Origin: Polytrichum commune
Lineage: Eukaryota > Streptophyta > Polytrichopsida > Polytrichales > Polytrichaceae
DNA length: 64,000 bases
Reading direction: 5' to 3'
Assembly (NCBI GenBank): GCA_950295325.1
Contig: OX485808.1
Coordinates: forward strand, 5,334,501-5,398,500
How positions within the stretch are numbered: the stretch's first letter is position 1; each line of letters starts with the position of its first letter. The notes under the pieces are model-generated. The model was not told the origin of the DNA, did no database searches, and worked only from the letters and a program-made list of their open reading frames with translations. Shown here in pieces: positions 4,637-63,932 of the stretch. A program made the translations under genes and the position numbers.

Positions 4637-5580
4637 TTTAGGAAGTGTTTGCGAAGTGAGGCCACCGAGTCTGAGTCATGTTCAGAGTTTGTGAAGGGTA
4701 TTGGATGGTGGTGGTCGAGTCCAACCACCACCTCTGGATTTTTTTTGAAGTGTTTGCGAAGTAAGGCCACAAAGTTGGAATCAATTTCACGGTCCGTAAA
4801 GGATGTGGATGGTGGCGGTCAAGTCCGACAACCACCTTTGGATTTTTTTTTATAGTGTTTGCAAAGTGAGGCACCAAATTGAAATCAATTTCACGGTTCG
4901 TAAAAGGTGTGGATGGTGGTGCTTGGGTTCGACCACCATCTCTGGATTTTTTTTTAAGTGTTTGCGAAGTAAGACCACCAAATCGGAGTCAAGTTCAAGG
5001 TTCGTAAAGGGTGAGGATGGTGGTGGTCGGGTCCGACCACCACCTTTGGATCTTTTTTTTTAAGTGTTTGCGAAGTGAGGCCACCGAATCTGAGTTAATT
5101 TCACGGTTTGTAAAGGGTGCCGATAGTGGTGGTCGGGTCCGACCAACACCTCTAGATCATTATTTTTTTGAAGTGTTTGCAATGTGAGGCCACCAAGTGG
5201 GAGTCAATTTCACAGTTCGTAAAGGGTGTGATGGTGGTGGTCGGGTCCGACCACCACCTCTGGATCTTTTTTTTTTAAAGTATTTGCAATGTCAGGCCAC
5301 CATGTGGAGGTCAATTTCACGGTTCGTAAAAGGTGTGATGGTGGTATCGGATCCCACCACCACCTCTCGATTTTTTTTTTAAGTGTTTGCGAAGTAAGGC
5401 CACCGAGTCTAAGTCAATTTCACGGTTTGTAAGGGTATGAATAGTGGTGGTCGGGTCTGACCAACACCTCTGGATCATTATTTTTTTGAAGTGTTTGTAA
5501 TGTGAGGCCACCAAGTAAAAGCCAATTTCACGGTTCGTAAAAGGTGTGATGGTGGTGGTCGGGTCGGACCACCACCTTTG
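4637..5580. repeat. Satellite array A, about 106-bp monomers each with a 12+2+12 hairpin
   Basis: Monomers read roughly GTGTTTGCGAAGTGAGGCCA, then a variable middle, TTTCACGGTTCGTAAAGGGT, then a near-perfect inverted repeat (GGTGGTGGTCGG, GT centre, CCGACCACCACC), then CTCTGGAT and a T-run. Centres at 5031, 5137 and 5245 give spacings of 106 and 108 bp. About nine monomers occur before the solo LTR. Monomer bodies diverge more than the hairpin core. Confidence 0.9.
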
Positions 5581-6554
5581 TGTCGCGCACCTCTCCATGA
5601 GGAGTGTCCGAAACACCATGGGCACAAGGGGGACCCCGGAGTGACACCCGGGACTTGTGGCGCCGTTGGTGAGAGGGCCCAAGTGATCCTAGTGTGAGTG
5701 AGGGCCCCGGGCATTGGGAATGCCTCCCACCCACGAAGACTAGGAGGCACAAGGGTAAGGCCATGAGTTATGCGTAGCTCATGGCGTGGTGATTCTAGAA
5801 AGCTCAAGAACACCTTAATCGGAGGTGTGAGCTAGGAGTTATGGCCATTTGAGTGGGGCGCTGTCCCGGGACAGCGCCCTGGTAGAGCAGTGCCTGGGAG
5901 TGATTCCCGGGACTGCCAAGGTTCAAACAGGCATAACTTCCTGAATACTTGCCCGAATGGGGCAAGTGAGGAGTCCATCGGCATCTACGTGAAGCGTACA
6001 TGAAGATGGAGTGGTTGGTTGTTATGATCAGACATCATACAAGGAAGTTATGATGGTCTGAAGCTGCTAGGGGGTTCTAGGCCCAGCAGCTAAAGGAAAA
6101 TGTCCACTTGGCCCCAACTCTTGGTAGAGAGACAAGAGGTTGGTTGACGGTGGGGTAGGGGCCCCGCGTGAAGTCCTAGAGGCTTATATGGGTGAGGTGG
6201 TGTGGCCTCACCCACCCAAGGCCGAACGGCAAGGCCTCCATGGGCATTGGCCCATTGTGAGGCCATAGTTGCCTAGTATGGTTCGGGTTGTTGTAGTGTT
6301 GCTCCGGCAATGCAATGATCAACATGGGATTGGACTTCCATTGATGGAAGTCCACATATAGGAATGGGTTCCCGATTAAGGGGTGATTCCCGAAAGCAAA
6401 GTAGGAGGGTTGGTTCCCTCCTATGAACTATAAGGTCCGGGGTGAGAGGAACTAACCATTAGCATGGCGGTATGCGAATGGTTAGCGCTCGTAACCTTTG
6501 CTAGGAAATGAAAATTGGCAAGATGGTCAAGGAGGGCTAGCAAAGGTTGCGACA
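5581..6554. mobile_element. Solo LTR (974 bp) with 5-bp target duplication CTTTG
   Basis: The segment starts TGTCGCGCACC and ends GGTTGCGACA, so it has the TG...CA ends of an LTR within a short terminal inverted repeat (TGTCGC/GCGACA). The five bases before it (5576-5580) and after it (6555-6559) are both CTTTG. Satellite array A resumes directly on the right, so the LTR inserted into the array. It is more GC-rich than its surroundings, carries no long frame, and has a possible TATA-like CTTATATGG near 6182. No primer-binding site or internal retrotransposon domain is next to it, which fits recombination down to a single LTR. Confidence 0.85.
5856..5879. repeat. 24-bp perfect palindrome inside the solo LTR
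   Basis: Arms GGGCGCTGTCCC and GGGACAGCGCCC meet with no spacer. It is the longest perfect, spacerless palindrome I noticed in the window and is wholly GC-rich at the outer ends. Confidence 0.9.
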
Positions 6555-6559
6555 CTTTG

Positions 6560-7410
6560 GATCCTTTCTTTTGAAGTGTTTGCGAAGTGAGGCCACCAAG
6601 TGGGAATCAATCTCACGGTTCGTAAAGGGTGTGATGGTGGTGGTCGGGTCCGACCACCACCTCTGGATCCTTTCTTTTGAAGTGTTTGCGAAGTGAGGCC
6701 ACCAAGTGGGAGTCAATCTCACGGTTCGTAAAGGGTGTGATGGTGGTGGTCGGATCCGACCACCACCTCTGGATCTTTTTTTTTGAAGTGTTTGCAAAGT
6801 GAGGCCACCAAGTCTAAATCAATTTCACGATTTGTAAAGGGTATGGTGGTGGTGGTCGGGTCCGACCATCACCTCTGGATTTTTTTTTTGAAGTGCTTGC
6901 AATGTGAGGCCATCATATGGAAATGAATTTCAAGGTTCGTAAAGGGTGTGGATGGTGGTGGTCGGGTCCGACCACCATCTCTGGATTATTTTTTGAAGTG
7001 TTTGTAAACTCAGGCCACCGAGTCGGAGTCAAGTTCACGGTTTGTAAAATGTGTGATGGTGGTGGTCGGGTACGACCACTACCTCTGGATTTTTTTTAAA
7101 ATGTTTGCGAAGTGAGGCACCAAGTCGAAGTCAAATTCACAGTTCATAAAGGGTGTGGATGGTGGTGGTCGGGTCCGACCACCACCTCTTGATTTTTATT
7201 TTTTTAAGTGTTTGCAATGTGAGGCCACCAACTAGGAATCAAATTCGCTGTTCGTAGAGGGTGTGGACATTAGTGGTCGGATCCGACCAGCACCTCTTGA
7301 TATTTTTTTTTGGAAGTCTTTGCGGTGTGAGGCCTCGGAGTATGACTATAAGGGAGGGTTTCTTAAGGGTGGTGAAAGGTGGTGAAAGGTGGTGGTCGGG
7401 TCCTACCACC
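6560..7410. repeat. Satellite array A, second block
   Basis: This is the continuation of the roughly 106-bp monomers after the solo LTR, again with the GGTGGTGGTCGG / CCGACCACCACC hairpin in each unit (for example near 6650, 6755, 6967 and 7168). Monomers become more diverged toward 7300, where the unit changes into the 320-bp type. Confidence 0.88.
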
Positions 7411-8640
7411 ACATCTGGTTGCAGAGCTAGAAGCCCCTAACAGCTTCAGACGTCCATAACTTTCAGGTTTGATGTTTGATGCTCACATATGACCATTCTA
7501 TCAGCATCTACGTTTCACGTAGATCAGGATGGATACCTCACTTGCCCCATTCAGGCAAGTATTGAGGAAGTTATCCTTGTTGAAAGCTTCGCAGTCCGGG
7601 AGAGGTGCGTCACAGACCTCCACCTTTGGATTCTCTTTTGTTTTGATGTTCTTGCGATGTGAGGCCTCTGAATATGAGTCTAGGGAGTGTTTCTAGAGGG
7701 TGGTGAAAGGTGGTGGTCGGGTCCGACCACCACATCCGGATGCAGAGCTAGAAGCCCCAGCAGCTTTAGACATCCATAACTTTCAGGTTTGATGTCTGAT
7801 GTGCACATATGAGCACTCTATCAGCATTTACGTTTCACGTAGATCAGGATGGATACCTCACTTGCCCCATTCAGGCAAGTATTGAGGAAGTTATCCTTGT
7901 TGAAAGCTTCGCAGTCCGGGAGAGGTGCGTCACAGACCTCCACCTTTGGATTCTCTTTTGTTTTGATGTTCTTGCGATGTGAGGCCTCTGAATATGAGTC
8001 TAGGGAGTGTTTCTAGAGGGTGGTGAAAGGTGGTGGTCGGGTCCGACCACCACATCCGGATGCAGAGCTAGAAGCCCCAGCAGCTTTAGACATCCATAAC
8101 TTTCAGGTTTGATGTCTGATGTGCACATATGAGCACTCTATCAGCATTTACGTTTCACGTAGATCAGGATGGATACCTCACTTGCCCCATTCAGGCAAGT
8201 ATTGAGGAAGTTATCCTTGTTGAAAGCTTCGCAGTCCGGGAGAGGTGCGTCACAGACCTCCACCTTTGGATTCTCTTTTGTTTTGATGTTCTTGCGATGT
8301 GAGGCCTCTGAATATGAGTCTAGGGAGTGTTTCTAGAGGATGGTGAAAAGAGGTGGTCGGGTCCGACCAACACATCCGGATGCAGAGCTAGAAGCCCCAG
8401 CAGCTTTAGACGTTCATAACTTTCAGGTTTGATGTCCGATGCTCACATATGACCACTTTATCGGCATGTACGTTTCACGTAGATTAGGATGGATACCTCA
8501 CTTGGCCCATTCAGGCAAGTATTGAGGATTTTATCCTTGTTGAAAATTTCGCAGTCCGGGAGAGGTGCGCGGCAGACTACCATCTTAAGATCAGTTTTTT
8601 TTAATAAAATTTTGTAATATGAGGCCACCAAGTTTTAGTC
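7411..8640. repeat. 320-bp higher-order tandem repeat, four units
   Basis: Units begin with G-G-(A/T)-TGCAGAGCTAG at 7417, 7738, 8058 and 8378, so the period is 320-321 bp. The two central units are almost identical; the outer ones are diverged. Each unit is one satellite-A monomer (including its GTCGGGTCCGAC hairpin core) plus about 235 bp whose reverse complement matches parts of the solo LTR at 5581-5596 and about 5905-6107. Each also has small hairpins: ATCTACGT/ACGTAGAT and ACTTGCC/GGCAAGT. A degenerate last monomer fades out near 8640. Confidence 0.88.
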
Positions 8641-8778: not shown

Positions 8779-11368
8779 ATGATGTCGATTGTGAGTGGAG
8801 GTGTGGAGGTTGCAACTGGAGGGTCATCAACAAGCGTTTCGGGGAGTCTTTGCAGAGGAACCATGGACTTGGAGGTTACGCACGGGTCGCCTGATGTAGG
8901 CATTGCACCAAGGAAGGGAAAGGGAAGGGTACGGCGCATTCCTCAGTCTGAGTCCAGTGAGAGTGGAGATCGCGACGACGGTGATGAGTCGCAACCTTCG
9001 CTTGGGATGGATTCGGTAGGGGATCATAGTCACCATCTTTCTGCTAGTTCTAGTCAAGGCCAGAGTAGTGGTGATGGAGGCCATTTTGAGTCACCTATGG
9101 AGCGTGCTCGAAGGCAAGTTAAGGACCTGACGAAGGTTGGGAACAATATGCAAGCCACATTACTCCATGGCAATATGTATGAGGTAATCGAAAGTATGAG
9201 GCGGCAGCCCGTCTCAAAAGCAGTCCTTCGAATTCCATTGTGTAGGATGGTTCACATGCCCATGGTTAGACCTACACTTCGATGTGATGTTGTTAAGTTG
9301 ATGGGAGCGTTTCGGTATGGGTACAAGCCCCATTCAGGTGTTATTTATGTGTCTGTGAAGGATGACGAGGGTCATATCAGGGTTGTCACTCAAGAGGATG
9401 TACAACAATGGAGCCCTTGCTGGATTCAAGAAAATAATACATTCGAAAACTGCTTGAAATCAGATCCTGACCTCGTGAGCTTGAGTGGCTCAATGTTCTT
9501 TGTTTATGATGGTAACCATAGGCTCTTAGCTTGGAAGGAGGTGATTGAAACTCTTCATGCTGAAGATCAACATTGGGTTTCAAAGAATGGTAATCCCGAA
9601 TGCGTTGTACTTGATACCGCTGGAGGTCGTGGAGATATCCTCACTGCCATGCACGATATTAACAGGTACTTTATTATTGATCTCATATTGTTTTTTATCC
9701 TCTTATTTGGCGCTTCACAATTTATGCAATCTGACATGCCAATTGTGCAGATCCAATCAAACGGCACATGTGAAGACTAGCTTAGTTCATATTCTTCACC
9801 GTATTCGGAAATACGGATCGTATGACATTGAGTACTTCAAGCCCATGCTTACTCCGGAGCAAATCAAATCATGCCTCACGAAGTCAAAGAAGACGTGGTA
9901 CCCATTTACTAGAGATTTGATGGTCAACTTCATCTTCAGTGTAAGGATCTCAATTCCTTTTGGTTTCTCCCTTATCCGCAATCATTTGATTTGAGAGTTT
10001 AGTTTTGATTTTGTGCTTCATTCTTCAGGATGACATAGTCCAAGTGGGTAGTGAGGCTGGGCAGTTATACTTGGAAGAGGTGGATGAAAGCATGCATAGC
10101 GATTCAGGACTCCAGGAATATGTTGACAAGGCTATTGCTAAGAAGAAGGAGGAGCTATTTACCTACTTCAACAAAGCCCAATCAGTTGCTAATTCAGCCG
10201 TAGGGGAGGGCTTCATGGAAGAGGTGAGTGAATTTTACTTGGATTTTGATTTCGACTCAAGACCTTAGCTCTGCCTCTGCTGATGCATTACTTCCTTGGA
10301 CATACAGGTTATTGCGCATTATAGTGCACACGTTGCTGCCAAAGTTGAGATGTCACTAGAAAAACTGCAGATGGTGGCAATTGCAGCGGTTGAGCCCAAG
10401 TACAAAGTGTGTTGGCTCAAGTGGTGGAACAGTTCAGAAACTGTTCGAAAGGACCTCAGGTTTCCAAAATACCCTGCTGGTGAGGACACGCTCAAGAAAT
10501 GGATGGACCGTGCTGCTCTTTGGGCAGGGATAGAGGAGAGTGCCACTCAAGAGCTTGTTGGTTACATAGCACTAGTGGGTGGGGTTGATAAGTCCAAGGA
10601 TGTAGAGAGTCTTGAGGACTACATTGACACTTGGCGGATTTGCCTTTGGGACAAGGCATTTAACTCCTTCTTATCTGGTTCTGATGCACACAATAAATCC
10701 CTTGTGTTTGATAAAGTCAAGGATGGGGATCTTCTTGTGAAGCAGCTTTGCCTCAGGTATGAGTTAGTTATTTATTCATTTCATTACATTTTATTTTTTT
10801 CAATGCCGATGGTTGCTTGCGGTTTTGCTTTAGTGTGATGTTATGTGTGCCTTGCTCATTCATGATTTTTTACCAATCTCATCTAGTGTCTTTTGCTGAA
10901 TTTTGAAGGTATATGAAGCACGTTCTTTTTAAAGTTGGGGCAATTCGGAAGCTACCTCCTTGTGTGCAGGGGTGGTGCGATTCTTCTTCACCGACCTTCA
11001 TCTTCTCAAAGGCACAGAAGAAGAACTTTAGTAGAGAGCATCTCATTGAATGTTGTTGGTACATTGAATGTCCTAAGGGCTTTGTGCCTGACTCAGAGTC
11101 TGAGATCAAGAAATCCTTAACTGTCACACAGGATCTCCCTAATGATGATGATGCACAAGAAGTTGAAGAGATTGTTGTTCTTGAAGTTTCACCTACCTTG
11201 GATGGAGAGAAGTCTTATGGTAAGAAGAAGCTTGCTGCGAAGACTTCAACAACTGGAGTGTCCAAGAACAGTAGAGCAATTGTTGCTTCAGTGGTTGCCA
11301 CTGGATCTGCCACAGTTGAAGACACTCTGATGGGCGAAGCTGATAGTGAGCCCTTTCTACTCACTTAG
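8779..11368 (+). CDS. ParB/sulfiredoxin-fold-like protein, N-terminal half of a ParB-methyltransferase fusion
   Basis: The start ATG at 8779 follows a good acceptor (TTTTGTACAG, ending 8772). Exons that keep frame are 8779-9665, 9751-9940, 10029-10223, 10308-10756 and 10909 onward; every junction is GT-AG. Residues about 20-130 are Ser/Gly/acidic and basic low-complexity. Residues about 165-310 look like a ParB-type nuclease fold: a VLRIPLCRMV strand, then YDGNHRLLAW at about 243-252, which carries the family's D-G-N/x-H-R-x-x-A signature. The next 330 residues match nothing I know; they are helical and Trp-rich (WLKWWN, KKWMDRAALWAG). The frame ends at TAG 11366-11368 after an acidic/Lys/Ser linker, yet it stays open in the same phase beyond the stop into the methyltransferase region. 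The TAG is therefore probably a mutation inside one fused gene. ParB-like domains act on or bind DNA; the role here is unknown. Confidence 0.6.
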
Positions 11369-12832
11369 AGCCATGTGAAGGTACCAACTCCTCCCTCTCT
11401 ATCTCAGCATCCTTCTTCTGAGAGCAGACCGCAAGTCCTTGTCATCAACGACTCCATTCTTAAGCAGCAGCAGTTCTTTCGTGAGGTGCGCAAGTTTGTT
11501 GTATCATGCTCTCTTTCTCGCTCATGGAGAATCCACGGCGTGCCTTCATTGCGTGGAGCAGCTGACTTGGTAATTGCAGACTTACCGGAAGGTCTGCCAG
11601 TTCCAACTGTCTCGGTGCCATCATCAATAGTACCCACTTGGAATGAGAAGAGTGAAGACTACTTGCAGGAGTTGTTTGATTTTGCAGATGAGATTCTACA
11701 CGATAATGGTGTCTTGTTACTTTTTTTTTCCATTTGATAATGGAGAGTTCCTTGAGGACATTGAGAGGTTTTATGATTATTTTGGCTTTGCTGTGTGTAA
11801 GGAGTGGATGGAGGTCAATTTCTTGCCCATTAGCTCGGCAAGGATTCCCAATACCACCACGAACAGATTCAATATCCTTCTTCTCAAGCGGGTTTCGCGG
11901 CCCGAGGACTCCGTGTCTTGGACTTCTACATTTTCCATTCGTTATGTACCAGAGTTGGTGGCACATGGTGTGGACGTTGGCCTCAACAACACATTGATTA
12001 ATTTCTGCACCAATCCACTCATGGATGGTGCTCGACCGTGGAGAGGCCCAAGAGAGAAGGATGAGTACTTCTTTTCATGCCTCATTATGGCTCTAACCAC
12101 AGTCGGGGACTTGGTTATTGATGTTGCAGCTGCCACTGGTATGAATTTCACTTCATTGATGTCCTTGATCTGAATTCAAACTAATCACTTTGTGAATATG
12201 GTACTTATTACAAATTGTTGATTTCTTTGTAGGCAATTCTATTCGTGCTTGCAAGAGTACTGGCAGGCACGTACTGGGCCTGGAGAGTGACAAGAAGTTG
12301 TTTGGGGCTGTTCTTCAGCCTATGATGTCTATTGCTCCACCACCTCCACCTCCTCCACCTCCTCAAGCCCATGTGCCAATTGCAAAGAAACCAAAGAAGG
12401 TTGTTGCAGTGGAGCGGCGTCGTGTTGAGGACTCTGAGTAAGTACGTACCGCTTACTCTTTCTATTTCATTGGTCAATATTCATAGTTTTCTTAGAACCA
12501 TGATATCACTTGTGCCTAAACTCTTTAAAATGTTGCAATATTGTAGAGACTATCCTAGTCCAACTAAGAGTTGGAGACTCCCTTCGTATGCAGAAGAAAT
12601 TGCTAAGCTACAAGCCCTACAAGCATCTCCATCTCTCCAGTCAAATGCCTCTCCGAAGTATAACCCTCGTGTTTTGAAATTCTTAGATGTTGATGCAGAT
12701 GTTGATTTTGAGATTGGTTTGACTGACATTCAAGCCAGCCCTAGTGATTGTGTTGGTGGTTCTATTTCTCTATCCACCAGCTTTGTTGGTAACGGTTTGA
12801 TTTATGTGGATGATGAGGCTATTAGTGAATAG
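11369..12832 (+). pseudogene. DNA methyltransferase-like (beta-class, N6A/N4C type) domain, C-terminal half of the fusion, frameshifted
   Basis: This continues the phase of the preceding exon (10909-12138), then uses exons 12233-12437 and 12547-12832. The nine-T run at 11721-11729 shifts the frame: with eight T the protein runs on as LLLFFPFDNGEFLED, while as written it stops at once. The domain order suits permuted beta-class DNA methylases. AADLVIADLPEGLP sits in the motif IV position (usually DPPY/W, so degenerate). Next is FADEILHDNGVLLLFF, then TTVGDLVIDVAAATGNS and GRHVLGLESD, resembling motif I (GD-V-DPFxGSGTT) and the following R-x-x-x-G-x-E. The tail has a Pro run (12336-12363), a Lys/Arg patch and a final acidic 95-residue exon. 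The full fusion would be about 1146 residues. Catalytic competence is doubtful given DLPEG. Confidence 0.55.
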
Positions 12833-16658: not shown

Positions 16659-17969
16659 GTTTACGAACGCACGTTCGTAAACGTGAGTTGGTAGCACATG
16701 TACAAGAGGTACATAGATATGATGTGAGTTGTTTACGAACGTGCGTTCGTAAGTTGATCACAACCGTACTCGACATTGAATTACTTATAGACAGAACTAG
16801 GCACGAAAATTGTGTCGATTATATACGAACGTACGTTCGTATATCTGCCTTCAAGACCCAAACGCACATGAATTCCCGTGTAACCGTTTTCTCCAACGGA
16901 ACATCTGATGATGGGATATTTACGAACGCACGTTCGTAAATATCACCTGGGATTATTTTTCAAGAATCCATAAACATTCCTTAATTTATACACTTCCGTG
17001 CATTGGCCACGTTAACAATATGGAAGTTAAATACGAATGCTCGTTCGTATTTCGCACTACCATTTGTGTCCACGGAGTATTATGTTTTCCAATTTTACGA
17101 ACGCACGTTCGTAAATACCACCTGTCCACCGTCCACGCATCCACCAACAGACCTATTGACGCAAGCATGTGTGGAGGACTACACCATGTTTAGGATAGAT
17201 ACGAACGCTCGTTCGTATTTTTCACTACCATTTATGTCCACGGAGAATTATGTTTTCCAATTTTACGAACGCATGTTCGTAAATACCACCTGTCCACCGT
17301 CCACGCATCCACCAACAGACATGTTGACGCAAGCATGTGTACAGGACTACACCGTGTTTATGATAGATACGAACGCTCGTTCGTATCTGTGCAATCATGA
17401 TTTTAATGATAGATGTCGATTGTCATTTTCCACTGGATATTGGATTTCATGTATCCCTGTAACGTGGCTATAGATATCTCTATTCGGACGTGTCCAATTA
17501 TTTTTGCCTAACACTGTCGCGGTTGTAACATACATATGATCGATGCTATGCATCCGCCCCTAAGTTTTGGTTGGAACTTACGAACGATCGTTCGTGTACA
17601 TAAGCACTCCATTTCGGCTGTAGCTAACGAACGATTGTTCGTAAACACTTGCCCATCAAATACACGCCCCTCAAATATGATGCTTACTGCATGTGAATAA
17701 AGTGGCAAGTATATTTTAGGTGCTCTTATAATATGTCCCATTTAGATTTTATTGTATATTGGGTTGATGTTTTCGTCCTCGCGTTCATGAATATATGTGT
17801 TTGTGTTGTCCCTTGGTGGTGGACAACCCTTCCAATGTTTTATTGGCGACTCCACCCAAAGCCCTTCACGGGTAATATATATTGGAATGGGGTTCCGTTG
17901 TGCAGGGACGTCTGAGTCCCGTCTAGGATTTGCATGTCATGGGGCTGTTGTCGAACGCACGTTCGTCTT
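16659..17969. repeat. Palindrome array B: twelve ACGAACG-NN-CGTTCGT sites
   Basis: Twelve inverted repeats share the core ACGAACG, a 2-bp centre and CGTTCGT. They are centred near 16670, 16742, 16832, 16929, 17040, 17104, 17208, 17272, 17376, 17588, 17635 and 17959. Centres differ (CA, TG, TA, CT, AT). Outer arm bases also differ but usually stay complementary: GATATTT...AAATATC at 16915-16944, AGAT...ATCT at 17365-17388, ATAT...ATAT at 16821-16844. Between 17029 and 17388 two of the sites are carried on a tandem unit of exactly 168 bp. The array ends about 140 bp before the likely start codon of the downstream gene. Confidence 0.92.
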
Positions 17970-18109: not shown

Positions 18110-21100
18110 ATGGCGATGCACGTTGGATATAGTTCATTGGAGTTGTCCACAAAAGCTTCCTCTTCCGATGGTGACTGTGAACTATCTTCGCCATCGGCGG
18201 GTAGTCATAGCATGACAAATGCCATGGGTGGGTTTGTGGATGCATCCTCCCACGAATCATTTGAAGCGCACGAACAATCTATATGTTCCGGGGATGACAA
18301 TGATGACATTCTGTTATGTGCCGGTTTCGGTAGGGAGCAATGGGTGGGCCTTGATGTTGTTCTTTTCAACGATGTTGGTGTCCCGGTGGCAGATGGCATA
18401 TGTAGAAACTCCGATCCCCGTGATTGTGTGGATGCCAACCCCCTTGGTCCCGATGATGTGGGTGTGTGCATCTTGAATTCTTTGTTTCCGCTTGATGTCC
18501 CGGTGACATGGAGATTTTCCTTGCGTCGATGGCCTCTTTGTCGGGTTCTCCATGACGGAGTAAGCTTGTTGGACCATGAGCGCCGCCATAAGCAAACGCA
18601 ATTAGCTTTGTTGGTCAAAATACGTCCTCGCAAAGGCCTACGCAGATATGATTCTAACCGTGTACCTCGTGGAGATAAGGAACGTCGACGGGATCGCATA
18701 TTGGGAGACGAATCTATCCGTCTTGTGTCCGCCAAGGACTGTTGCCAGAGGAAATGTTGCCAATTTTTCCCGCAGGAGAAAATTAAGTCCGTACGTCAAG
18801 AGATGTGGGTTGCCAATTTCCGTATGAAATCGGCAAAGAAACTCGAGGTCCACAGAAATGTCCACATTGACACCCATGGGCATAAGGTGGTCACACTTGA
18901 GAATGTGGAAGTGTGTTGTACTGCGTGGTATACCATCCACGCCATGTCAAAGTCTGACTTTTATAGGTTTCAAAAATATTCATTGTTGGGTCGCCGCTCT
19001 CGATTTCATGGCAATTCGGGTACAAAAAAACCTAGGGAGGCTACACTCCAAGCCTCCGCGACACTCTCCACCATCATAGTCCCATTGGCCGATGCAATGC
19101 CCCACAAGACGAGGACATTGTCGTCAGGGGAGAAAGTTGTACAAATGGTGTTGCCCACGGGTACAAAATGGAAGAACATATTAACGGACATCAATGAAGT
19201 GGGTCGCATAGCGGGATGTGGGCCCATTTCTTTGTCCAAGTTGAGTGTGATTAAAAACCAACAGTTTGCCGAATACATTTTGAAGAGACCTGGGGACAAG
19301 TTCGCTAGGTGTACGACGTGTGAAAAATATAAAGGTCTTCGAGACGCCCACCCCATAGGCACCGAATCCCACACTAGACACCAAACAAAATATATTGAAC
19401 ATGTCAACAACCAAGAGGCTCACTGTCAAGATTACTACAAGAACCGTGCTCTATCCATAATGAGGCCTACAGAGGTTCTAACAATCATCCATGATAAAAT
19501 GGACCACGCCAAGACCGCATGCCCTTGTTATGCACGCAAAATAAAGGCCACGGATGGTCTCTTCAAGTTGCCTGTATCTGTCACAGGTTTGTATTGAATC
19601 ACAAATATGTATTCAAATTCTCTCAAATTTTACTGGGTGTGTTTGCCAAATGTCCAATTTCATACCTCCGTTTGGAGTTGTCGTTGTTATTGTTGTTGTT
19701 TAAGCATCGTTTGTTTTTTTCCACAGGGATGATTGCCCACGGCCATGGAGACGTAAAGTATGCCCATTATGGGTTGGATTTTTACCCTGGCGATGCTAAC
19801 CACACAGTGGGTTCATTTACAAAACTCTTGCGCGATCTGGAGAAGCCGCCGTTACATTCATCACGTGCACTTTTTGATGGTTGTGGAACGACACCCCTTT
19901 ACGAAACAGTGCTTGCGGGGAAGGAGGTTTGTATGTCGTCATTGCCAGAACCACCGGGAAAACCTATTTGTGCAAAACCATTGCCTCCAACTCTTCACGT
20001 TCAACTTGATAATTGCGCGAAAGACAACAAATGTTGATATGTATTTTGTTTTTGGTCATTGCTCGTGGCGAAAGGAATCTTCAAGGAGGTGTTTGTGTCA
20101 TTTTTTATAGTGGGACATACACACGACGACATTGATGCATCATTCGGATGGTGGAGCATGAAGTTGCATGAAGAAGATTTTCCAACCATACCTCTTCTTA
20201 TGAAATTATATATGGATTTGGACCATATGCCAGTAATTCCGCACATGATTGAGGAAGTACCAGATTTCAAGGCCTTCATCAAGTCATACATGTTGAAGGG
20301 AGGGGACCGTTTGGTGGGGCATACCAAAGCACAACAATTCCGATTCTATATAAGGGAGGATGGTCTCCCAGCCATGCAATTCAAGCTTTTGTGCACATCT
20401 CCTAATCGGGGCCCGGATGATGGTATACTTGTATGGCGTCAAAATAATGATGGCAAATGTTTGCTCCCAGATGGGGATCCAAAGCCTTGCAAACCCGACC
20501 CCATGAGGAATGGGCCGGAAATCATTAAAGGCATATCCGGATTCATTGAATATTGGAAAGAGTTGTGTGAGGAGGACATCACTAGACGTGTTAGAGATAC
20601 TCATGAACCTTTGATTGCGTATTGGGATCGCATTCGTTCCGCCCTAATGACACTTGGTGGTGACACCTGTACAACTTTAACACAAGGATTTTGGCCACAA
20701 AGTCGTTTGACGGTTGTCGAGTCCGACACCATGGTTTTTAGCAATGGAGACGTTTGTGAAGAGTTCGCAATGGACGAGCATTACGTTGGCCCTGCCCGCA
20801 ATCGACCGGCACCGTCGTTTCGTGTAGGTGTTGATTGCCATGAAAGTTATTTGGTCCTTGTACGAGCAGGGGATGAGGAACATCCCAAGCCAATTTGGTT
20901 GGTGAAAGCATTGTCTTCACCCAATTTTGTTCGAACTAGCCCCAACTTTCGTCAGATTGAGGTGGAATATTATCGTCAAAGTACTAAAGACCAGAACGTG
21001 CTACGCACTTATTTAGGTTGGGACACCAAAAAGAATTTTAAATGGACAGTGGACTTAGCGTACACACCGGTTTGGATAAACACGGATACTATACTTTGTG

Positions 21101-21246
21101 CTTGGAAGCTGCGCAAAGGGTCCAAAACAGAAACAATGACCATCCCCCAAAAACATATAGATTTTGCCAAAGACAACTTAGCACGTATTGCAGCGGCAGA
21201 AAATGACGCCGAGAATGGATATGAAGCGGAAGATGGAGATGTGTAA
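18110..21246 (+). pseudogene. DUF7869-like putative transposase, copy 1, one nonsense codon
   Basis: Exon 1 is 18110-19586, the GT-AG intron is 19587-19726 (140 bp), and exon 2 is 19727-21246; the same intron position occurs in copy 2. The protein would be about 998 residues. Order: an acidic N-terminus, a conserved WVGLDVVLFND block, a basic region, a Cys cluster (CCQRKCCQFFP) and VCCTAWYTIHAMSKSDFY. Then come HDKMDHAKT near the end of exon 1, QLDNCAKDNK, and VGHTHDDIDASFG in exon 2. The last three carry the acidic residues expected of an RNase-H-like catalytic core of the DUF7869 type. TGA at 20035-20037 cuts the frame right after AKDNKC; copy 2 has AGA (Arg) at that position. The frame is open again to 21246, so the lesion is recent. 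In-frame codons continue upstream to 17930 through a palindrome, but I prefer ATG 18110, downstream of a possible acceptor (TTTTTCAG near 18019). Confidence 0.7.
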
Positions 21247-30780: not shown

Positions 30781-41777
<10,997 letters not shown>

Positions 41778-53460: not shown

Positions 53461-53492
<32 letters not shown>

Positions 53493-55326
53493 CTTTAGAG
53501 ACCTAGAATATGTTTCTCTTCGCAAGAAAAATAATTCCTTGCAATTATTCCTCCTAAACAGATGTAAACTCTCTTAATTAAACAGTTATAGATGCCTCAA
53601 CCTTAGCGTAAGTCCTTAATGATAATTGACTTAGGTTGTACAAGTATTGTGGTCTTTTGTATGATGATACCAGGCCCACCAAACCTGAATACCGTAAGTA
53701 ATACAAGAATATCTTCTCGTTAGATGGGTTCTATCATATAATTAATGATACCATGGATTCACCTACATACCATACTTCTAACCTTCACTCTTTGTGTGTG
53801 CAAGTGGAACCTAACGTAAACCTAATGTAAGTAGGTGCTAAGATGACACAAACCAATACTTCAGCTAGGATTATATTAACAATTTCCGGTTACAGAAGGT
53901 CTTTTGAATAATTATTCGCCCAGGCGGTAGGATAGACCAATAGATGAGCTCCATGGACGAGTTTCTGTCGTGGAGAACAAGTAATCATGGATGAATGAAG
54001 GTGGGATGGGGGGGATGAATGAAGGGGCGAGGACATTGTTAGTTGAGGCTCGAGCTCTGTGTATTATATCAAGGCCATACCATTAATGATACCATGGATA
54101 CACTTGCATACCAAATTCTACTGTTGACTCTTGCATGTGCAAGTGGGGAAACCTAACATAGGTTAGCAAGGATAATTAACTTGGGTGCACAAAAATCTTG
54201 TGTCTCGTGATACTAGACCACTCATTGATTTGATTTTATTTTATTCAAGATGTTTTTCAAGACAAAATGCTTTATTATCATATGTGACTTTTGACTTAGA
54301 TTATTTGTGCCATTTTGGATGGATTAATCATACAAACCACAAGTTTGTATGAAACTTAAGGTCTTATATGGTCCCAAATGCATTTAGGGGCTAAGTTCTT
54401 TTCTACAACTAATCATACCATGCATTCACTTGTAGACCAATTCAATAGCATATGCAAGTGGAGAAACCTAAGGTTGAGGCATCCATAGTTGACCATGTCC
54501 ATTTAACTGCTCACTAGACTACCTACAATTCTATCTTAGATGAGATTTATCAAGGTTCATGCAAACGGAGTTAAGGTTTATGTGGTGGCAACTTTGTGTT
54601 CACTGAGAAACCAAAGTAGATGGCGGTATGAGTATGAATGTTATCAGCTACTTCCATTTGTAGCAATTTCTAGCAATTTCCATACTCATGATTTTATTTT
54701 TATTTTATTTTTAAAAAATCATTCTTCTTAGAAACTCAGAATATGATTCTCTTCGCAAGAAGAATAATTCCCCGCAATTACTCCTCCTAAACAAATAACA
54801 CTATATTCGTTAAATTGAGACTTTCTCTAGTCTCAAATTAATATATGGATCAAAGAACTTGAAGAGGCCCGAAACTATATTGTCAACAATCTCAATTATA
54901 TTATATGTTCTAATATCCCAAATCTATGATGTGCGGACATAAGCACATATGGTAGAGCACTTGACACCAACTTCATCAACAAAAACACATTGGGTAGAGC
55001 ACTCCAAACAAGTTTCACCCACAAAGCATATAAAATATTTTCTATTATTAGCATGCTCAATAGAATATAGACATTGCAACATACAAAGTGCCTGTAATAA
55101 ATGCATATTTTTTCATTCGACAATATAGTCCCAAACATAATAATAAGATGAACTTCATGTTTTTTTGAAATATAGTAAATGGATATTCATCCAACTCCAA
55201 ACAATATAGTATTCGTAAGTTCTACCCAAACTCTGCCCCAATTTTGAAGAGCACACATATAAGTAATTTATATTGCTATAATTACGTATTAAACTATAAT
55301 CATGCTAACACAATCCTACCAACTTC
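53435..55326. other. Intergenic with diverged local duplications
   Basis: A TA microsatellite lies at 53458-53493. A segment of about 95 bp containing TTCTCTTCGCAAGAAAAATA is repeated at 53494-53590 and 54723-54817. Another (ATGATACCATGGATTCAC ... TGCAAGTGG) appears three times near 53740, 54090 and 54415. No gene is supported. Confidence 0.5.
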
Positions 55327-58300
55327 TCATTCAACGTGGGTTGCTTCTTGTGCAATCCGAGCAAGGTTGTCTTTTGCAAAAGTTATGTACTTTTGAGGGA
55401 TGGACACTGATCCACTATGGTTTTTCCGTGGTTTCCATGCTATGAATATGGAATCTGTATCTACCCAAGATGGACCGTGCTCAGAATCCACCTTCCACCG
55501 AAAGTTAGGGTTTGTATCCCAGCCTGTATAATGCCGAATCACATCTTCATTCTTTGCTGTCGGTTGATAGTACTCCACTTGTATTTGTCGAAAATGAGGG
55601 CTGGAAGTTACAAAATTGGGTTTGGACAAAGCTCTTGCCACCCACACTGGCTTCGCATATGTCTCGTCTCCAGGACGCAAAATGAGCATATAACCTTCAT
55701 GACAATCCACTGCAATGCGGAAAGATGGTGGGGGACGACTACTAGCAGGCCCCACGTAATGGTCGTCCACATCAAACTCCTCTCGAACCTCTCCATTTCC
55801 CAAAAGACTAGGCTCCGAAGCTTGTACATCGACTCGTGTTTGTGGCCAAAATCCATGCCTCAAAGTATGAGGGCTATCTTGGTGGAGGTCTGCCAAGGCG
55901 GCACGAACACGTGTCCAATAATGTATCCAACTCCCATAACGATGCCAACATGATCCGCCAACATCCGCTATTTTCAAACTCTCCCAATATTGTATGAAGC
56001 CTGATATACCTTTCAAAATATCCTCTAAATTCTTCATGGCTATTGGCTTGCAAGGCCTAGGCTCCCCATCCGGTAACATGGTCTTTCCATCCGCATCCAC
56101 GCGCCACACAAGAAGACCCTCCGGCGGGCTCCAATCTTGTGTCGTGCACAACAACTTGTATTGCATGGCCGGGATACCATCGTCACGCATATAGAAGCGG
56201 AATTGTTGTGCCTTCGTATGCCCGATCAATCGGTGAGCTCCACTTCGAATATAAGGTTCTATAAATGCCTTGAAGTCTGGCACCTCCTCAATCATATGGG
56301 GGATGACAGGAACATTATCCAAATCCATGTACGACTTCATCAATAACGGGATTGTAGGAAAATCCTCCTCCCGCAACTTCATGCTCCACCGCCCAAAAGA
56401 TGCATCAATATCATCGTGCGTGTGGCCTACCAATAGGAAGGACACAAAAACCTCCTTGAAAATGCCTTTCCCAACCAACAACGACCAATATGCAAATACA
56501 TATCTACTTTTATTGTCTTTGGCACAATTGTCCAATTGGACACGCAAAGTGGGAGGCAACTTCTTGGCAATCACGGGTTCATTGGGTGGCTCTGGCAACG
56601 AATGGAAGCATACATCTTTTCCATCCAACACTACTTCATATAGAGGTGTTGAACCCGTGTTTTCAAATAACAATCCTGAAGAATAGGCTGGCGGTTTCTC
56701 TAAATCACGTAAAAGCCTTGCAAATGACCCTATCGTGTGGTTTGAATCTGCTGGATACAAATCAAGAGCATAATGAGCAAACTTGACATCACCGTGTCCA
56801 TGTGCAATCATTCCTGCAATGCCAACCCAACGTGATTAGATATAACTAAACCATTTTGAGTGAATCCATGTTCTCAAGTACATCACGGAATAAAAAAACC
56901 ACAACATTTAGGGTATGTCATGACATTGTTTCAAAGTTCACCTGTAACCGATACAGGCAATTTAAAAAACCCATCCGTGGCCTTGATTCGATTTGCAAAA
57001 CATGGGGAGGTTGTTTTGGCATGGTCCATTTTGTCATGGATGACCGTAAGAACCTCCAAGGGCCTAGAGATGGACAAAGCTCTATTTGTGTAGTAATCAT
57101 TACGGTGTGCCTCTTGCATGTTTACGTGCTTGAAATAGTTCAATTGATGCGCTGCATATGACTCGGTACCCATCGTGTGTGCATCCCGGAGGCGCTTCAA
57201 CTTCTCGCAATTATAGCACCTGGCAAATTTGTCCCCTCGTCTTTTTGTAATGTATTCGCTAAAGTTTTGTTTCTTGATTGCACTCAATTTTGACAATGAA
57301 ATCGGCTCCAACCCAATCTTCTCGCCAACTGCATTCACGTCCAACAATATGTCTTTCCATTTTGTGCCTGTGGGAAGAACTTTCTCCACAACCTTTTCAC
57401 CGGTTGTGAGTGTGCGTGTTTTGTGCGGCATTGCATCGGCAAAGGGGACAATGATGGTTGCTAGAGTGGCCGTTGTTTGCCTTGTTGTTTCCCTAGGCTT
57501 CTTTAAACCCACGTTACCATGGTGACGGGACCGGCGACCTTTTTTGGCATGAGCAACTTGTCTATAAAAGTCCGCTTTCGACACACCGTGAATGGTGTAC
57601 CATGCCTTACAACACACGTCTATGCTTTCAATGGTGATGACCTTGCGACCCGTCCCATTCACATGTATCGCCCTATGGACATCAAGTTTTCTTGTGGATC
57701 TTAGACGGAAATCACCAAGCCACATTTCTTCGCGGATGGCCTTCAATTTATCCCTTGGAAACAATTGGCAACAACAATGCACACAACAATCCTTTGTGGC
57801 AACTTCTCTAATGGACTCCTCCCCGAGCAACCTTTGACGTTTACAATCAGTTGCAGACGGAGCAGGACGTGCCAATGTATCGTACTTTCTTTGACCCTTG
57901 CGCGGCCGCATGTTTGATTGCACCTCCTTTTCGTTTTGCATGTGTCGTTGCTCATGTTCACGCAAGCTATCAATTGTGACATTCCTCAATGGCCACCTGC
58001 GGAGGGAGAACCTATGAGTGGGATCCACCTCGGAATGAACGACCGATTCCAATATGACAACCCCAACGTCCTCGGTGCCAAGCGGGTTTTCATCAATGCA
58101 ATCTTGCGGATGGGTGTTACGGCAAATCCCCTCCGCCACAACAACTCCACTATCGTTAAGAAGTATCACCTCCAAATTCACCCACGAAGCCCTTGAAAGT
58201 CCCGTACATTCAACAATGGGACACTGCGGTACGGAAGACGAAGGTAAATCCAAATGATCTTCATCCGCACTGTCAGCCATAGAAGCCTCCCCGACAATGT

Positions 58301-58379
58301 CTAGGTCATCATTAGATGCACATGGCCAAGTGGCCATGTCATCAGATGACCAATCCCCTATTTCACTAAACCCATCCAT
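55327..58379 (-). CDS. DUF7869-like putative transposase, copy 2, intact
   Basis: Exon 1 is 58379-56942, the GT-AG intron is 56941-56814 (128 bp), exon 2 is 56813-55327, and the stop is TGA 55329-55327. The product is 974 residues with no lesion. I start at ATG 58379 (MDGFSEIG) because an acceptor (GTGTGTAG / GCAG) lies immediately upstream; an in-frame ATG at 58400 is the alternative. Residues about 1-50 are acidic. Residues 66-84 are WVNLEVILLNDSGVVVAEG. The Cys cluster CCVHCCC is at 198-204. HDKMDHAKT is at about 447, QLDNCAKDNK at about 571, and VGHTHDDIDASFG at about 607-619. These match copy 1 at nearly every block. DUF7869 proteins are RNase-H-like and usually tied to mobile DNA; that role is family knowledge, not shown here. 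No terminal repeats were found, so it could be a domesticated gene. A palindrome array lies in the 5' region. Confidence 0.8.
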
Positions 58380-58584: not shown

Positions 58585-59026
58585 GAGGCTGGGTTTGGGT
58601 CGAGCGACCCAAACCTTTTGGGAGGATGGGTTCAGGCTCAATACAGAGAGCACCCACATTTAGGGGGCTGGGTTTGGGTCGAGCGACCCAAACCTTTTGG
58701 CAGGATGGGTTTAGGGTCACGACAGGGAGCACCCATACTTAGGGGGCTGGATTTGGGTCAAGCGACCCAAACCTTTTGGCAGGATGGGTTTAGGGTCACG
58801 ACAGGGAGCACCCATACTTAGGGGGCAGGGTTTGGGTCGAGCGACCCAAACCTTTTGGCAAGATGGGTTTAGGGTCACGACAAGGAGCACCCATACTTAG
58901 GGGGCTGGGTTTGGGTCGAGCGACCCAAACCTTTTGGCAGGATGGGTTTAGGGTCACTACAGAGAGCACCCACACTTAGGGGGCTGGGTTTGGGTCGAGC
59001 GACCCAAACCTTTTGGTAGGATGGGT
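58585..59026. repeat. Palindrome array C, first block (six 79-bp units)
   Basis: TTTGGGTCGNNCGACCCAAA starts at 58593, 58673, 58752, 58831, 58910 and 58989, a period of 79-80 bp. The centre is AG in all six; one copy has a changed left arm (GTCA). The rest of the unit is CTTTTGGCAGGATGGGTTTA, GGGTCACGACAGGGAGCACC and CATACTTAGGGGGCTGG. It lies about 210-650 bp upstream of the start codon of DUF7869-like copy 2. Confidence 0.93.
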
Positions 59027-59857
59027 CTCGGGGGGGGGGGGGCACTGGCGAAAAACGTAGGAACTACGTGCGATAAAATATAGGGTCTTGTATAAAAATT
59101 TGGCGTAAAATTTGTAAAATTATTAGATGTAGTATAGGGTGTTCTGGGATTGTAAAACATGATTATATGTAATATAGCATTTGACAAAACATGATTAAAT
59201 TACCTAAGTGGTACATATAAAATAGCATGGAGAAAAAATGATAGTTTCAAAAATTAAATACTTTGCCACCAAAATATAAAACCGGCCCCACTTTAGACCT
59301 TTCAAAAATTGCATAAATGAAAAAAAATGCCGGCTAATTGCCTAAATACATTAGGAAATGGGGGCTATCAACCGATAAAATTTGCACTCTCTAGGCCCAC
59401 TCTCGGGTAAAAATTGAAAAATCTGAGCTACCTCCAGAAAGCTCGGCATTCAGCACGTGGCATTCAGCCATTTCCTCTACAGAACTCCCTGGACTCTGCT
59501 CCCGCCCTCTCTCACCCCCGCCTCCATCAACCCTAGTTGGCAGACCTCAACTTGGTGCAAGAGTGGCACTCTGCTTCTCTGAGGCCCTGGAACAATTGGA
59601 GGATTCGGCTTCCAAACAATCGAAAACAATCAAGCAATCACCACCGGAAGCCTGGACATATAAGTAATATAGGGTATCATAAAATCAACCATCCAAGAAT
59701 TTATAATTACCAATAGGGTGCAAATAATTACAACAATTTACCATTATTTCAAAAATTAGCATCCCTTATAATCCTTTCTCATAGGTAAATAGCCCCCATT
59801 TTAATAGGTCATTATCGCAGGTGTATGCAAAATATACAAGGGAGTGCCCCCCCCGAG
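59027..59857. mobile_element. Mutator-like element with G-run termini, 8-bp target duplication GGATGGGT
   Basis: The left end is CTC followed by 13 G and CACTGGCG. The right end in reverse complement is CTC, 8 G, CACTCCC. GGATGGGT flanks both sides (59019-59026 and 59858-59865). A subterminal TGCGATAA occurs at both ends. Length is 831 bp with no long frame. It splits palindrome array C, whose unit sequence continues cleanly across the insertion. Duplication length (8, possibly 9) suggests Mutator or hAT. Confidence 0.72.
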
Positions 59858-60010
59858 GGATGGGTTCAGGCTCACAACAGTGAGCACCCACACTATAGGG
59901 CTGGGTTTGGGTCGATCGACCCAAACCTTGAGGCAGGATGGGTTCAGGCTCACAACAGAGAGCACCCACACTGTAAGGCTGGGTTTGGGTCGACCGACCC
60001 AAACAATTCC
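59858..60010. repeat. Palindrome array C, second block (two units)
   Basis: Units start at 59906 and 59984 (78 bp apart), with centres AT and AC. The surrounding unit sequence (GGTTCAGGCTCACAACAG, AGCACCCACACT) matches the first block. Confidence 0.9.
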
Positions 60011-61569: not shown

Positions 61570-61589
61570 TTTAGGGTTTAGGGTTTAGG
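61570..61589. repeat. Interstitial telomere-like repeat (TTTAGGG)n
   Basis: Just under three TTTAGGG units. Confidence 0.7.
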
Positions 61590-62418: not shown

Positions 62419-62591
62419 CTTCATCTCTTCCTCCGCGCCAAGCGCCGCTCTTGGAAACGCCGCCGCCACTTTCCATAGCACCGCGCCAAGCGCTTCCACT
62501 CCCACCTGTTTATTTTGTCTTGGACGCGCCGCTTCCCGCTTCTTTCTCTTCATTTCTCTCCTCCTCTCTGATGCTTATCCTCCTTGGCTTT

Positions 62592-62868
62592 GATTCTATT
62601 ATGTTTCTCACGCATTGAATGACTTCAGTTTGGTTTTGTTGTGTTGAAGTCCTTTCTTGTTGCAGAGTGCATGCAGTGAGTGACATCAGATTAGGGTGTG
62701 ATAGAGAGGTAGTCTCCTCCTCTTTTCTGATTCTATTTTGTTTCTCTCTTCTTGTTGTAGAATGCACGCATTGAGTGACTTTAGGCAGGTTTTGTTGTAT
62801 TGAACTCTTTTCTTGTTGTAGAGTGCATGCATTGAGTGACATCAGATTCGGGTGTGATAGAGAGGCAG
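62592..62868. repeat. 137-bp tandem duplication
   Basis: GATTCTATTNTGTTTCTC starts at 62592 and 62729. Both copies contain TTCTTGTTGNAGAGTGCATG and GTGACATCAGATTNGGGTGT. The repeated CTTGTTGTAG/CAG words look like splice acceptors. Confidence 0.7.
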
Positions 62869-63189
62869 AGTTCTTTCAAATTAGGCCTTAGCTTGCAAGA
62901 ATCAGGGTGTTTGTGAGAGGGTTTTAGTGTGCTTGTGAGAATCACAGTTCATCTCAGGTGTTTCTGAGTGTAGATTTTTAGTGATATCATAGAGATTCTG
63001 GGTTCTGGTTCTAAAAATCAGATTTGAGAGCAGCTTGAAAGACTGTGATCAACAAGGCATACAATTTCACTTGACCTAATTTGCTTCATTTATTTAGGGT
63101 CCTGTTTCATATACAATGTATAAGCATTGTATATCTTGTCTAAACATTAAACATGTTATGGAAATTCAACAGTTTTGGGAGACGACCCA

Positions 63190-63932
63190 AACCACAATTT
63201 AAAATCTAATAAAACATTGAAAATTGGCTTGAAAATTAAGTTAAAGTTTGGGTCGTTCGACCCAAACTCTTGCCTCATCATGTTTGGGTTGATCGACCCA
63301 AACAGTGCAGGGAGACGAAATAAACCACAATTTAAAATCTAATAGAACATTGAAAACTATCTTGAAAATTAAGTAAATGTTTGGGTCGAGCGACCCAAAC
63401 ATTGCAGCGTCATGTTTGGGTCGTTCGACCCAAACTATTGCCTCATCATGTTTGGGTCGATCGACCCAAACAGTGCAGGGAGACGAAGTAAACCACAATT
63501 TAAAATCTAATAGAACACCTAAAATTATCTAGAAAATTAAGTAAATGTTTGGGTCGAGCGACCCAAACATTGCAGCCTCATGTTTGGGTCGTTTGACCCA
63601 AATAAAGCATATACCCTCAATCCTAAACCCAACTCAAATGATGCCCAAATTAAAATCCTCCAAACATAAGGACTGGGTCTGGCGTCCCCAAACAGAAATT
63701 TATATTTAATGTTGCCAGAAATTGAAATTGGTGGACTCATAGATATAAGCATATACTATACTAATACAACAATACTCTCTAACGAGGACCTATCAAGAAC
63801 ACGCGCAACATGGGTTCAAGGTTTGGGTCGATCGACCCAAACCTTGAATTCATGATGTCAAATATAATAAATTTCTCTCAATCCTCCAAATGTTAAATGC
63901 ACTTTGCAATACTTTGGGTCGATCGACCGAAA
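63190..63932. repeat. Palindrome array C2: nine TTTGGGTCG-NN-CGACCCAAA sites
   Basis: Sites start near 63247, 63283, 63380, 63415, 63451, 63548, 63583, 63823 and 63913. Centres are TT, AT, AG, TT, AT, AG, TT, AT and AT; three sites have one arm mismatch. The triplet AT-AG-TT repeats with an exact 168-bp period (63283 to 63451, 63380 to 63548, 63415 to 63583). Between them is CAGGGAGACGAA(A/G)TAAACC and AT-rich filler. The array ends about 30 bp before the start codon at 63961. Confidence 0.92.

Follow-up and report, generated by a model that had tools for sequence, protein, structure and literature searches.

Introduction

CACTA transposons encode TnpA, a protein that reads a repeated CpG-containing motif in subterminal position. 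In the VANC/VANDAL system of Arabidopsis, each element family has its own motif, repeated in tandem in noncoding regions that include introns and the stretch 5' of the transposase gene; the motif varies by family, and that of VANC6 is also described from an unrelated element (PMC5735166, PMC10398659). VANC motifs are 8-9 bp long and all point the same way in their arrays; the stem 'palindrom' is absent from the main text of the report (PMC5735166). Silencing is also offset by VirB, a ParB-superfamily protein (PMC10653881), and unrelated lineages of fungal DNA transposons carry one kind of accessory gene, for a TET/JBP dioxygenase, that is thought to aid silencing escape (PMC12730594). The literature searched by title and abstract, outside subscription papers and preprints, yielded no description of palindrome arrays of the kind reported here.

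We analysed a 64-kb stretch of DNA (the window), for which an earlier note had proposed matched arrays of dimer-binding sites comparable to those of VANC, an interpretation that our data partly support. Judged from sequence, several jumping-gene families each have their own palindrome spelling on a common geometry, and the palindromes look like docking sites for self-recognition. As in VANC/VANDAL, the motif is particular to the family and is repeated in tandem within noncoding regions of the transposon that carries it. Unlike there, the sites are palindromes of 18-26 bp with a fixed 2-bp centre, the adjoining genes are others, and some sites lie within coding frames.

Palindrome arrays and their genes

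Perfect inverted repeats (arms of at least 8, spacer 0-4) numbered 67 in the window, 13 of these rows being supplied by one AT repeat at 53465, versus 4-15 in six dinucleotide shuffles; for the subset with a 2-bp centre, the counts were 30 versus 0-4. The three arrays proposed earlier proved real: a fuzzy scan of the window retained 20 of 24 matches for A, 12 of 17 for B and 17 of 101 for C, the discarded ones being weak (3-6 mismatches) or overlapping. Arrays A and B lie among the following features.

4637..8400, no strand: array A, 20 sites GGTGGTGGTCGG-NN-CCGACCACCACC, in tandem units of 103-108 bp and 320 bp
8779..12832, + strand: 'ParB-methylase' gene, downstream of A; MFFVYDGNHRLLAW in exon 1 and, as read by eye, stretches resembling a methylase in later exons
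16659..17969, no strand: array B, 12 sites (TTT)ACGAACG-NN-CGTTCGT(AAA)
18110..19588, + strand: DUF7869 gene copy 1, exon 1, 58% identity to copy 2
19729..21246, + strand: DUF7869 gene copy 1, exon 2 (PF25273), in-frame stop at 20035-20037
21633..21649, - strand: terminal repeat sequence AACACTATATTCGTTAA, 3' side of copy 1

The retained sites span 4711-8370 in A and 16663-17966 in B. The 2-bp centres were GT (17) and AT (3) in A, and CA (5), CT (3), AT (2), TG (1) and TA (1) in B. Array A does precede the gene called 'ParB-methylase', a name taken from motifs read by eye; the frame of this gene in the window is apparently broken, by a stop close to 11366 and a shift of frame close to 11720, unless these places fall in introns. 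Its relatives occupy at least 134 places in the genome (133 scored of 1105 candidates). The 20-bp A pattern has 50 exact sites in the 408-Mb source genome, and all 50 lie upstream of close copies of this gene, at distances of 213-6169 bp, these copies being seven of the eight closest among the matches listed. The earlier reading of matched arrays of putative dimer-type sites is thus well supported. Of 11 readable ParB-methylase copies chosen on protein sequence only, five had repeated palindromes; in the stretch covered for the other six, four showed no palindrome of this kind and two a lone one. Motifs A and E accompany this gene, and motifs B, B', C and F accompany DUF7869 and NIF-domain genes.

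The location of palindromes in gene 5' regions was confirmed for A, B and C, with the extension that introns hold palindromes too and that a few fall in coding exons, judging from the reading frame. All arrays had further been said to stop just ahead of a splice acceptor and ATG; by eye this fits B and C (ATG at 18110, 58379 and 63961) but not A, whose last site ends ~0.4 kb before the ATG, with no acceptor shown there.

The C element

Array C belongs to a transposon of 16,555 bp (E1) that extends from window position 54797 to L009:7451 in the continuing genome stretch.

54793..54796, no strand: 4-bp target duplication AAAT, with its partner after the right terminus at C6:5405851
54797..54824, + strand: left terminal inverted repeat of C element E1
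55330..56811, - strand: DUF7869 gene copy 2, exon 2 (PF25273, E=4.2e-42)
56937..58379, - strand: exon 1 of DUF7869 gene copy 2, with an approximate 3' limit
58592..60004, no strand: array C, 5' of DUF7869 copy 2, 8 sites GTTTGGGTCG-NN-CGACCCAAAC in 79-bp units
63245..63932, no strand: array C, 5' of the divergent accessory gene, 9 sites
63961..64000, + strand: accessory gene start, continuing in L009; FWLIDGQHSVEAS in exon 1, NIF phosphatase domain in the final exon

Of the 17 C sites, 8 fall in 58595-60002 and 9 in 63248-63931; their centres were AG (8), AT (5), TT (3) and AC (1). Both gene copies match PF25273, which corroborates their assignment to DUF7869, and the accessory gene matches the NIF phosphatase domain (PF03031, E=1.8e-11). 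C arrays do lie 5' of two genes, as claimed, but within a single element, whose second gene begins at the right edge of the window. With ends defined by comparing four copies, all four C elements (16.6-18.6 kb) have matching terminal inverted repeats and 4-bp duplications (AAAT, AAGT, CCTT and TTAT), and each holds a DUF7869 gene together with a divergently oriented gene for a NIF phosphatase domain, with palindromes 5' of both and in introns of the NIF gene. Repeats at 14794-15134, 23534-23635 and 60403-60690 were considered as transposon ends and dropped, as they look like small separate repeats.

The palindrome families had been called unrelated. This does not hold for B and C, since copy 1 (B) and the C element have a terminal repeat sequence in common; the other end of the copy 1 repeat was not found within the 64-kb window. 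Among the 150 + 150 matches listed, 18 of 23 DUF7869-NIF pairs within 25 kb are divergent, the random expectation for pairs within this distance being a mean of 2.8 and a maximum of 9. The literature searched (subscription papers and preprints outside its scope) returned no paper under the name DUF7869, viral contigs contained neither a relative of DUF7869 exon 2 nor a C-pattern match, and AlphaFold models of the two DUF7869 exons gave no usable fold (mean pLDDT 32 and 36).

The proposed association of palindromes with genes was also borne out as far as the matches listed reach, and the note's refuting case, palindromes equally common far from these genes, was not observed within that scope. 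Palindromes of these kinds stood 5' in five of six DUF7869 copies picked by protein, as a single site in one of the five, and none of these kinds was found in the sixth; one of six random 10-kb stretches had repeated palindromes, and that stretch held the accessory gene. Motif specificity is not strictly private, since a second kind of element carries C arrays as well (L011-L013, L020-L021, L036), and L042 and L043 combine B' sites with one B-type site; that the gene in L011/L020 might be a MULE is only a guess, from a SWIM match below the cut-off (E=0.076). A motif common to two element kinds would suit host transcription factor sites captured by transposons. We regard such capture as improbable, because each family has its own motif, a per-family change not expected for a host factor, because motif changes accompany the element's own proteins, and because five of the six random stretches are without repeated palindromes.

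Genome-wide counts and palindrome geometry

In the source genome, the exact C motif has 9231 sites and exact B (TACGAACGNNCGTTCGTA) 4680, and three further motifs, B', E and F, have 1382, 997 and 644, respectively; reversed-palindrome controls gave 0 for each of these and for A. The geometry is strict: 9231 C half-site pairs are inverted with a spacer of 2, against 2 with spacers of 3-8 and a single pair in direct order at 0-8 bp, unlike the one-orientation motifs of VANC. Half-sites measure ~8-12 bp around the fixed 2-bp centre, those of the DUF7869/NIF families 10 bp.

Perfect arms reach 17 bp, as might be expected if selection acted on a hairpin or cruciform, in RNA or DNA, and not on protein binding. 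We consider this very improbable, since core deviations in A, B, C and D comprise 0 symmetric versus 108 one-sided changes, a one-sided decay that argues against hairpins, and since larger loops should be acceptable in a hairpin, whereas spacers of 3-8 are nearly absent. In smaller sets, symmetric and one-sided deviations numbered 1 to 12 (B'), 2 to 6 (E), 1 to 0 (F) and 1 to 2 (L037 type), partly reflecting differences between subfamilies. At C position 11 the arms agree in 71% of sites versus 31% across arrays, a figure inflated by the many sites that are tandem copies; for this reason, and given the one-sided core changes, we did not count it as evidence for hairpins.

Many palindromes are part of tandem repeats with units of 32-320 bp, and neutral tandem-repeat turnover could have amplified them by chance. 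To this explanation we give the least credit of all: the same core recurs in unrelated flanks and in differing tandem units inside one element, exact cores dominate (127 of 176 C sites), and matching intron positions retain a palindrome despite different sequence. Indeed, palindromes occupy matching places with differing sequences in the B and C elements, and likewise in B' for the stretches seen; the first intron of the accessory gene has a palindrome 8 (C), 5 (B) or 18 (B') bases past the end of the exon, and its sequence differs from type to type.

Accessory proteins as candidate readers

On this sequence evidence, we hold it somewhat probable that the arrays are cognate sites of dimeric, sequence-specific proteins encoded by their own transposon family, in VANC/VANDAL-like anti-silencing. 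A homodimer would read both halves of the palindrome. The reader is probably the accessory protein, namely a DG(Q/N)H protein whose fusion partner would be the NIF phosphatase domain in DUF7869 elements and a methylase-like portion in elements of the other kind. Occupied promoter and intron arrays would then keep element genes open against silencing, as VANC does. As in fungal TET/JBP transposons, for which the abstract mentions no cognate DNA arrays, an accessory gene occurs in more than one transposon kind, but the protein here is a different one.

DGQHS is present in all four aligned NIF-gene sequences, an interrupted fifth copy outside the alignment (L017) having DGQYN, and all 13 ParB-methylase sequences that were aligned share GNHR without change. 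When profiles of both accessory kinds were compared, the DGxH motif aligned at a probability of 1% (P=0.048), which is not significant. A methylase relation was also sought between the second exon of the NIF gene and pieces of the A gene, and the comparison gave no support.

The DG(Q/N)H(S/R) stretch of the accessory genes presumably recalls ParB-like domains, with their DG(E/Q/N)(H/R)R-like motif. The sites resemble those of bacterial ParB-parS in being palindromic and putatively of dimer type; unlike that system, they reside in nuclear transposons of a plant-like genome, and the ParB N-terminal domain gave no significant profile match (best ParB-named profile phrog_1033, E=0.43). The DGxH domain had nothing significant in Pfam, NCBIfam or PDB, and Pfam on the accessory gene returned, besides NIF, only HAUS-augmin3 below the cut-off (E=7.5e-4). 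By analogy, we tentatively raise the unlikely case that at least two transposon kinds have a eukaryotic ParB-parS counterpart, in which a ParB-like protein would load at the family palindromes, spread along its own element and block silencing with a methylase or NIF effector, motif and protein co-diversifying into mutually blind families.

Divergence of motif and protein

Across seven copies with a motif, representing five motif types, motif distance appears to track protein distance in this small sample. DUF7869 exon-1 identities and half-site mismatches were 96%/0 (C-C) and 97%/0 (B'-B') within a motif, 83%/1 (F-F') and 59-65%/1 (B-B') between close motifs, 56-58%/5 (C-B) and 49-54%/4 (C-B') for C against B and B', and 30-39% with 4-7 mismatches for F or F' against other motifs. 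Motif divergence alongside element proteins, albeit in a small sample, is a further likeness to VANC/VANDAL, and the VANC comparison may accordingly stand for layout and co-divergence but not for motif type, VANC motifs being short and of single orientation.

The same tracking of exon-1 divergence, together with palindromes 5' of DUF7869 in most protein-picked copies, would fit binding by the DUF7869 transposase itself, the palindromes then serving in transposition or autoregulation in the manner of the subterminal repeats of CACTA elements. We deem this possible though unlikely. The motif is repeated and contains CpG, as TnpA sites do, but is strictly palindromic and internal: exact sites in E1-E4 begin at least 2.7 kb from either terminus (in E1, ~3.8 kb left and 2.7 kb right), so the C palindromes are not subterminal at either end. 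Palindromes also lie inside accessory gene introns, and elements whose accessory gene is a different one (A, E) have arrays of this kind too.

Under the favored reading, in which the accessory protein binds, tandem duplication would let motif and protein change jointly, and through this joint change families would stop recognising each other. If true, a single genome holds at least six parallel pairs of protein and palindrome that have already diversified, with site numbers in the thousands for some, a source of orthogonal dimer-site pairs in which new DNA-binding specificity in selfish elements, and silencing escape, become directly testable.

Palindrome arrays and half-site geometry

The three palindrome families (A, B and C) that an earlier note had described in the window were borne out, with 20, 12 and 17 sites retained out of 24, 17 and 101 fuzzy matches, respectively. 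The window holds 67 perfect inverted repeats (arms of 8 bp or longer, spacers of 0-4 bp) vs 4-15 in six shuffles; of those with a 2-bp centre there are 30 vs 0-4. We then took exact spellings, including the further ones B', E and F, to the whole genome (407.8 Mb, seven large contigs; window at C6:5334501-5398500), which returned 9231 sites of C, 4680 of B, 1382 of B', 997 of E, 644 of F and 50 of A. F had first been seen in L041, a stretch fetched for a DUF7869 copy chosen by protein. As a control, each of the six patterns was reversed, giving another palindrome of identical letter content, and all six reversed patterns yielded 0 sites genome-wide.

The C half-site GTTTGGGTCG forms 9231 inverted pairs at 2-bp spacing and 2 at 3-8 bp (spacings counted, 2-8); direct pairs 0-8 bp apart occur once genome-wide, whereas the reversed control for that search had 1 hit on one strand and 3 on the other. 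One of the eight L041 sites has a spacer of 0. Ten bp of the C half-site are conserved and position 12 is at background. The outermost base, at position 11 counted from the centre, changes from one array to the next and is often the same in both arms (agreement 0.71 between arms vs 0.31 across arrays, in 155 distinct contexts). Variation in the 2-bp centre is broad for B and C, and slight for A and a further spelling, D. Core deviations in A, B, C and D were all one-sided (symmetric to one-sided, 0:6, 0:16, 0:68 and 0:18), which argues that the DNA is read base by base, and against selection for pairing. In smaller sets these ratios were 1:12 (B'), 2:6 (E), 1:0 (F) and 1:2 (the type found in stretch L037).

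Elements carrying the C arrays

Four copies of the C element were delimited, the first running from the window into the fetched stretch L009:

E1, window 54797 to L009:7451: 16,555 bp, target duplication AAAT
E2, contig C1: 18,084 bp, target duplication AAGT
E3, contig C1: 18,616 bp, target duplication CCTT
E4, contig C1: 16,952 bp, target duplication TTAT

All four thus have 4-bp target duplications, and they carry the terminal repeat AACACTATATTCGTTAAATTGAGACTTT, with one E3 end diverged. Each carries a DUF7869 gene and a divergent accessory gene whose end is a NIF phosphatase domain, identified by Pfam in E1 and by tblastn with the E1 exon in E2-E4. Sites exact over 9-bp half-sites (20, 38, 18 and 25 in E1 to E4) are placed 5' of both genes and in the introns of the accessory gene. 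Among the best 150 of 1491 DUF7869 candidates and the best 150 of 965 NIF candidates, 23 pairs lie at most 25 kb apart (in 18 of which the genes are divergent, at a distance of 12-20 kb), vs a mean of 2.8 and a maximum of 9 in 500 random placements. Phosphatases of the NIF family carry DxD; the domains at L009:5214-6062, L028:5674-6450 and L023:5238-6017 read DLN instead, so that the enzyme may be inactive, judging from its sequence.

In the B element of L028, palindromes are placed as in C, that is, in the 5' array, introns 1 and 2, and exon/intron 3. Downstream of exon 1, palindromes begin at base 8 in C (GTGAGTAT-GTTTGGGTCG), at base 5 in B (GTGAG-TTTACGAACG) and at base 18 in B' (L023, one of six random stretches). 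Sites at L009:4401 and 4470 and at L028:4620 and 4996 fall in predicted coding exons of the accessory gene, within these spans:

L009:4401-4490: palindromes within the accessory-gene reading frame
L028:4620-5011: palindromes within the accessory-gene reading frame

Association with gene families

All 50 exact A sites lie 213-6169 bp upstream of copies of the ParB-methylase gene. The copies concerned are seven of the eight closest (77-100% identity), the eighth being a fragment, and none of the 123 more distant matches listed (133 of 1105 candidates scored) had A sites nearby. By eye, three ParB-methylase places (C1:10936998, 15223937 and 19862127) are flanked by E sites among the C1 matches listed. 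Twelve ParB-methylase copies, one of them masked, were chosen by protein, and their upstream stretches were inspected for palindromes whose centre is 2 bp long or self-complementary. Repeated palindromes were found in L029 (2), L032 (7), L035 (7), L037 (5) and L036 (six D and six C), and single ones in L031 and L034. L030, L033, L039 and L040 had none of the sort; in L040, a palindrome whose centre is 3 bp long occurs twice. An inner core, TCGG-NN-CCGA, is common to the motifs of A, E, L029 and L037, which differ in the outer arm. Another palindrome, approximately GGGCGCTGTCCC-GGGACAGCGCCC, is not arrayed and lies upstream of ParB-methylase genes:

Window 5856-5879: this palindrome or a close variant
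L029:230: this palindrome or a close variant
L030:279 (oriented): this palindrome or a close variant

Six DUF7869 copies were likewise chosen by protein (L041-L046). Eight F sites were present in L041, six and four B' sites in L042 and L043, 15 C sites in L044 and one F-like site in L046; L045 (about 20% identity) had no palindrome. The promoter regions of L042 and L043 each hold two spellings, B' distally and one B-type site near the gene:

L042, minus strand, oriented: B' sites 142-756; B-type TATACGAACG at 1268
L043, minus strand, oriented: B' sites 191-486; B-type TATACGAACG at 1220

Repeated palindromes were absent from five of six random 10-kb stretches, and the sixth, L023, proved to be a NIF-gene locus; these stretches gauge roughly the share of sites outside such elements. 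Over the first 2.16 Mb of C1, the C sites listed (the first of the 9231) all fall in E2-E4 or in a second kind of element, with a ParB-methylase relative and a gene with a weak SWIM match. In this second kind (L011-L013, L020-L021, L036), C arrays of ~32-bp spacing occur together with D palindromes CCCTGTGCGTTAACGCACAGGG.

Candidate reader and possible role

In a small sample, we set DUF7869 exon-1 identity against half-site mismatches, obtaining 96% and 0 for C-C, 97% and 0 for B'-B', 83% and 1 for F-F', 59-65% and 1 for B-B', 56-58% and 5 for C-B, 49-54% and 4 for C-B', and 30-39% and 4-7 for F or F' vs the others (the F' half-site being taken from one arm; the outermost base of the other arm is different). 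As putative palindrome binder, the DUF7869 protein ranks as the chief rival. We favour the accessory protein as the putative reader, since it is apparently what both element kinds share and has sites in its own introns. Accessory genes of both kinds contain a DG(Q/N)H stretch, reading DGQHS in all four aligned NIF-gene sequences and DGQYN in the interrupted L017 copy; GNHR is invariant in 13 of 13 ParB-methylase sequences. We take the stretch to be reminiscent of ParB-like domains. ParB-like identity of the DG(Q/N)H region received no significant support from any library searched, and a profile comparison of the two accessory kinds was centred on this motif, not significantly.

Published accounts of VANC (PMC5735166, PMC10398659) describe motifs that accumulate through tandem repetition, in introns as well as 5' regions, and that change between families. 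The arrays here resemble that description in all these respects, and differ in their strict palindromic geometry and in the genes involved. Because the layout matches, anti-silencing would be their most likely role. The CpG ratio of E1-E4 is 0.74-0.78, vs 0.47-0.68 in five random stretches and 0.43 at window 24-50 kb. This is compatible with low methylation and with youth alike and does not discriminate between the two. Against the view that the arrays are cognate sites of the elements' own proteins stand the C spelling shared by two element kinds and the lack of repeated palindromes, in the stretch inspected, from roughly half of the ParB-methylase copies sampled. A counterpart of ParB-parS in these elements would be categorically new if true, and we consider it unlikely.

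Palindromes outside the arrays

One identical 23-bp palindrome, ACACTAAATATCATATTTAGTGT, occurs at window 15108-15130 and 36344-36366 and probably derives from a small repeat element. A CACTA-type tnp2 gene (window 51776-52747; PF02992, E=5.7e-64) is without an array; upstream of it lies a single palindrome, TATCAATAG-CT-CTATTGATA, at window 51126-51145.
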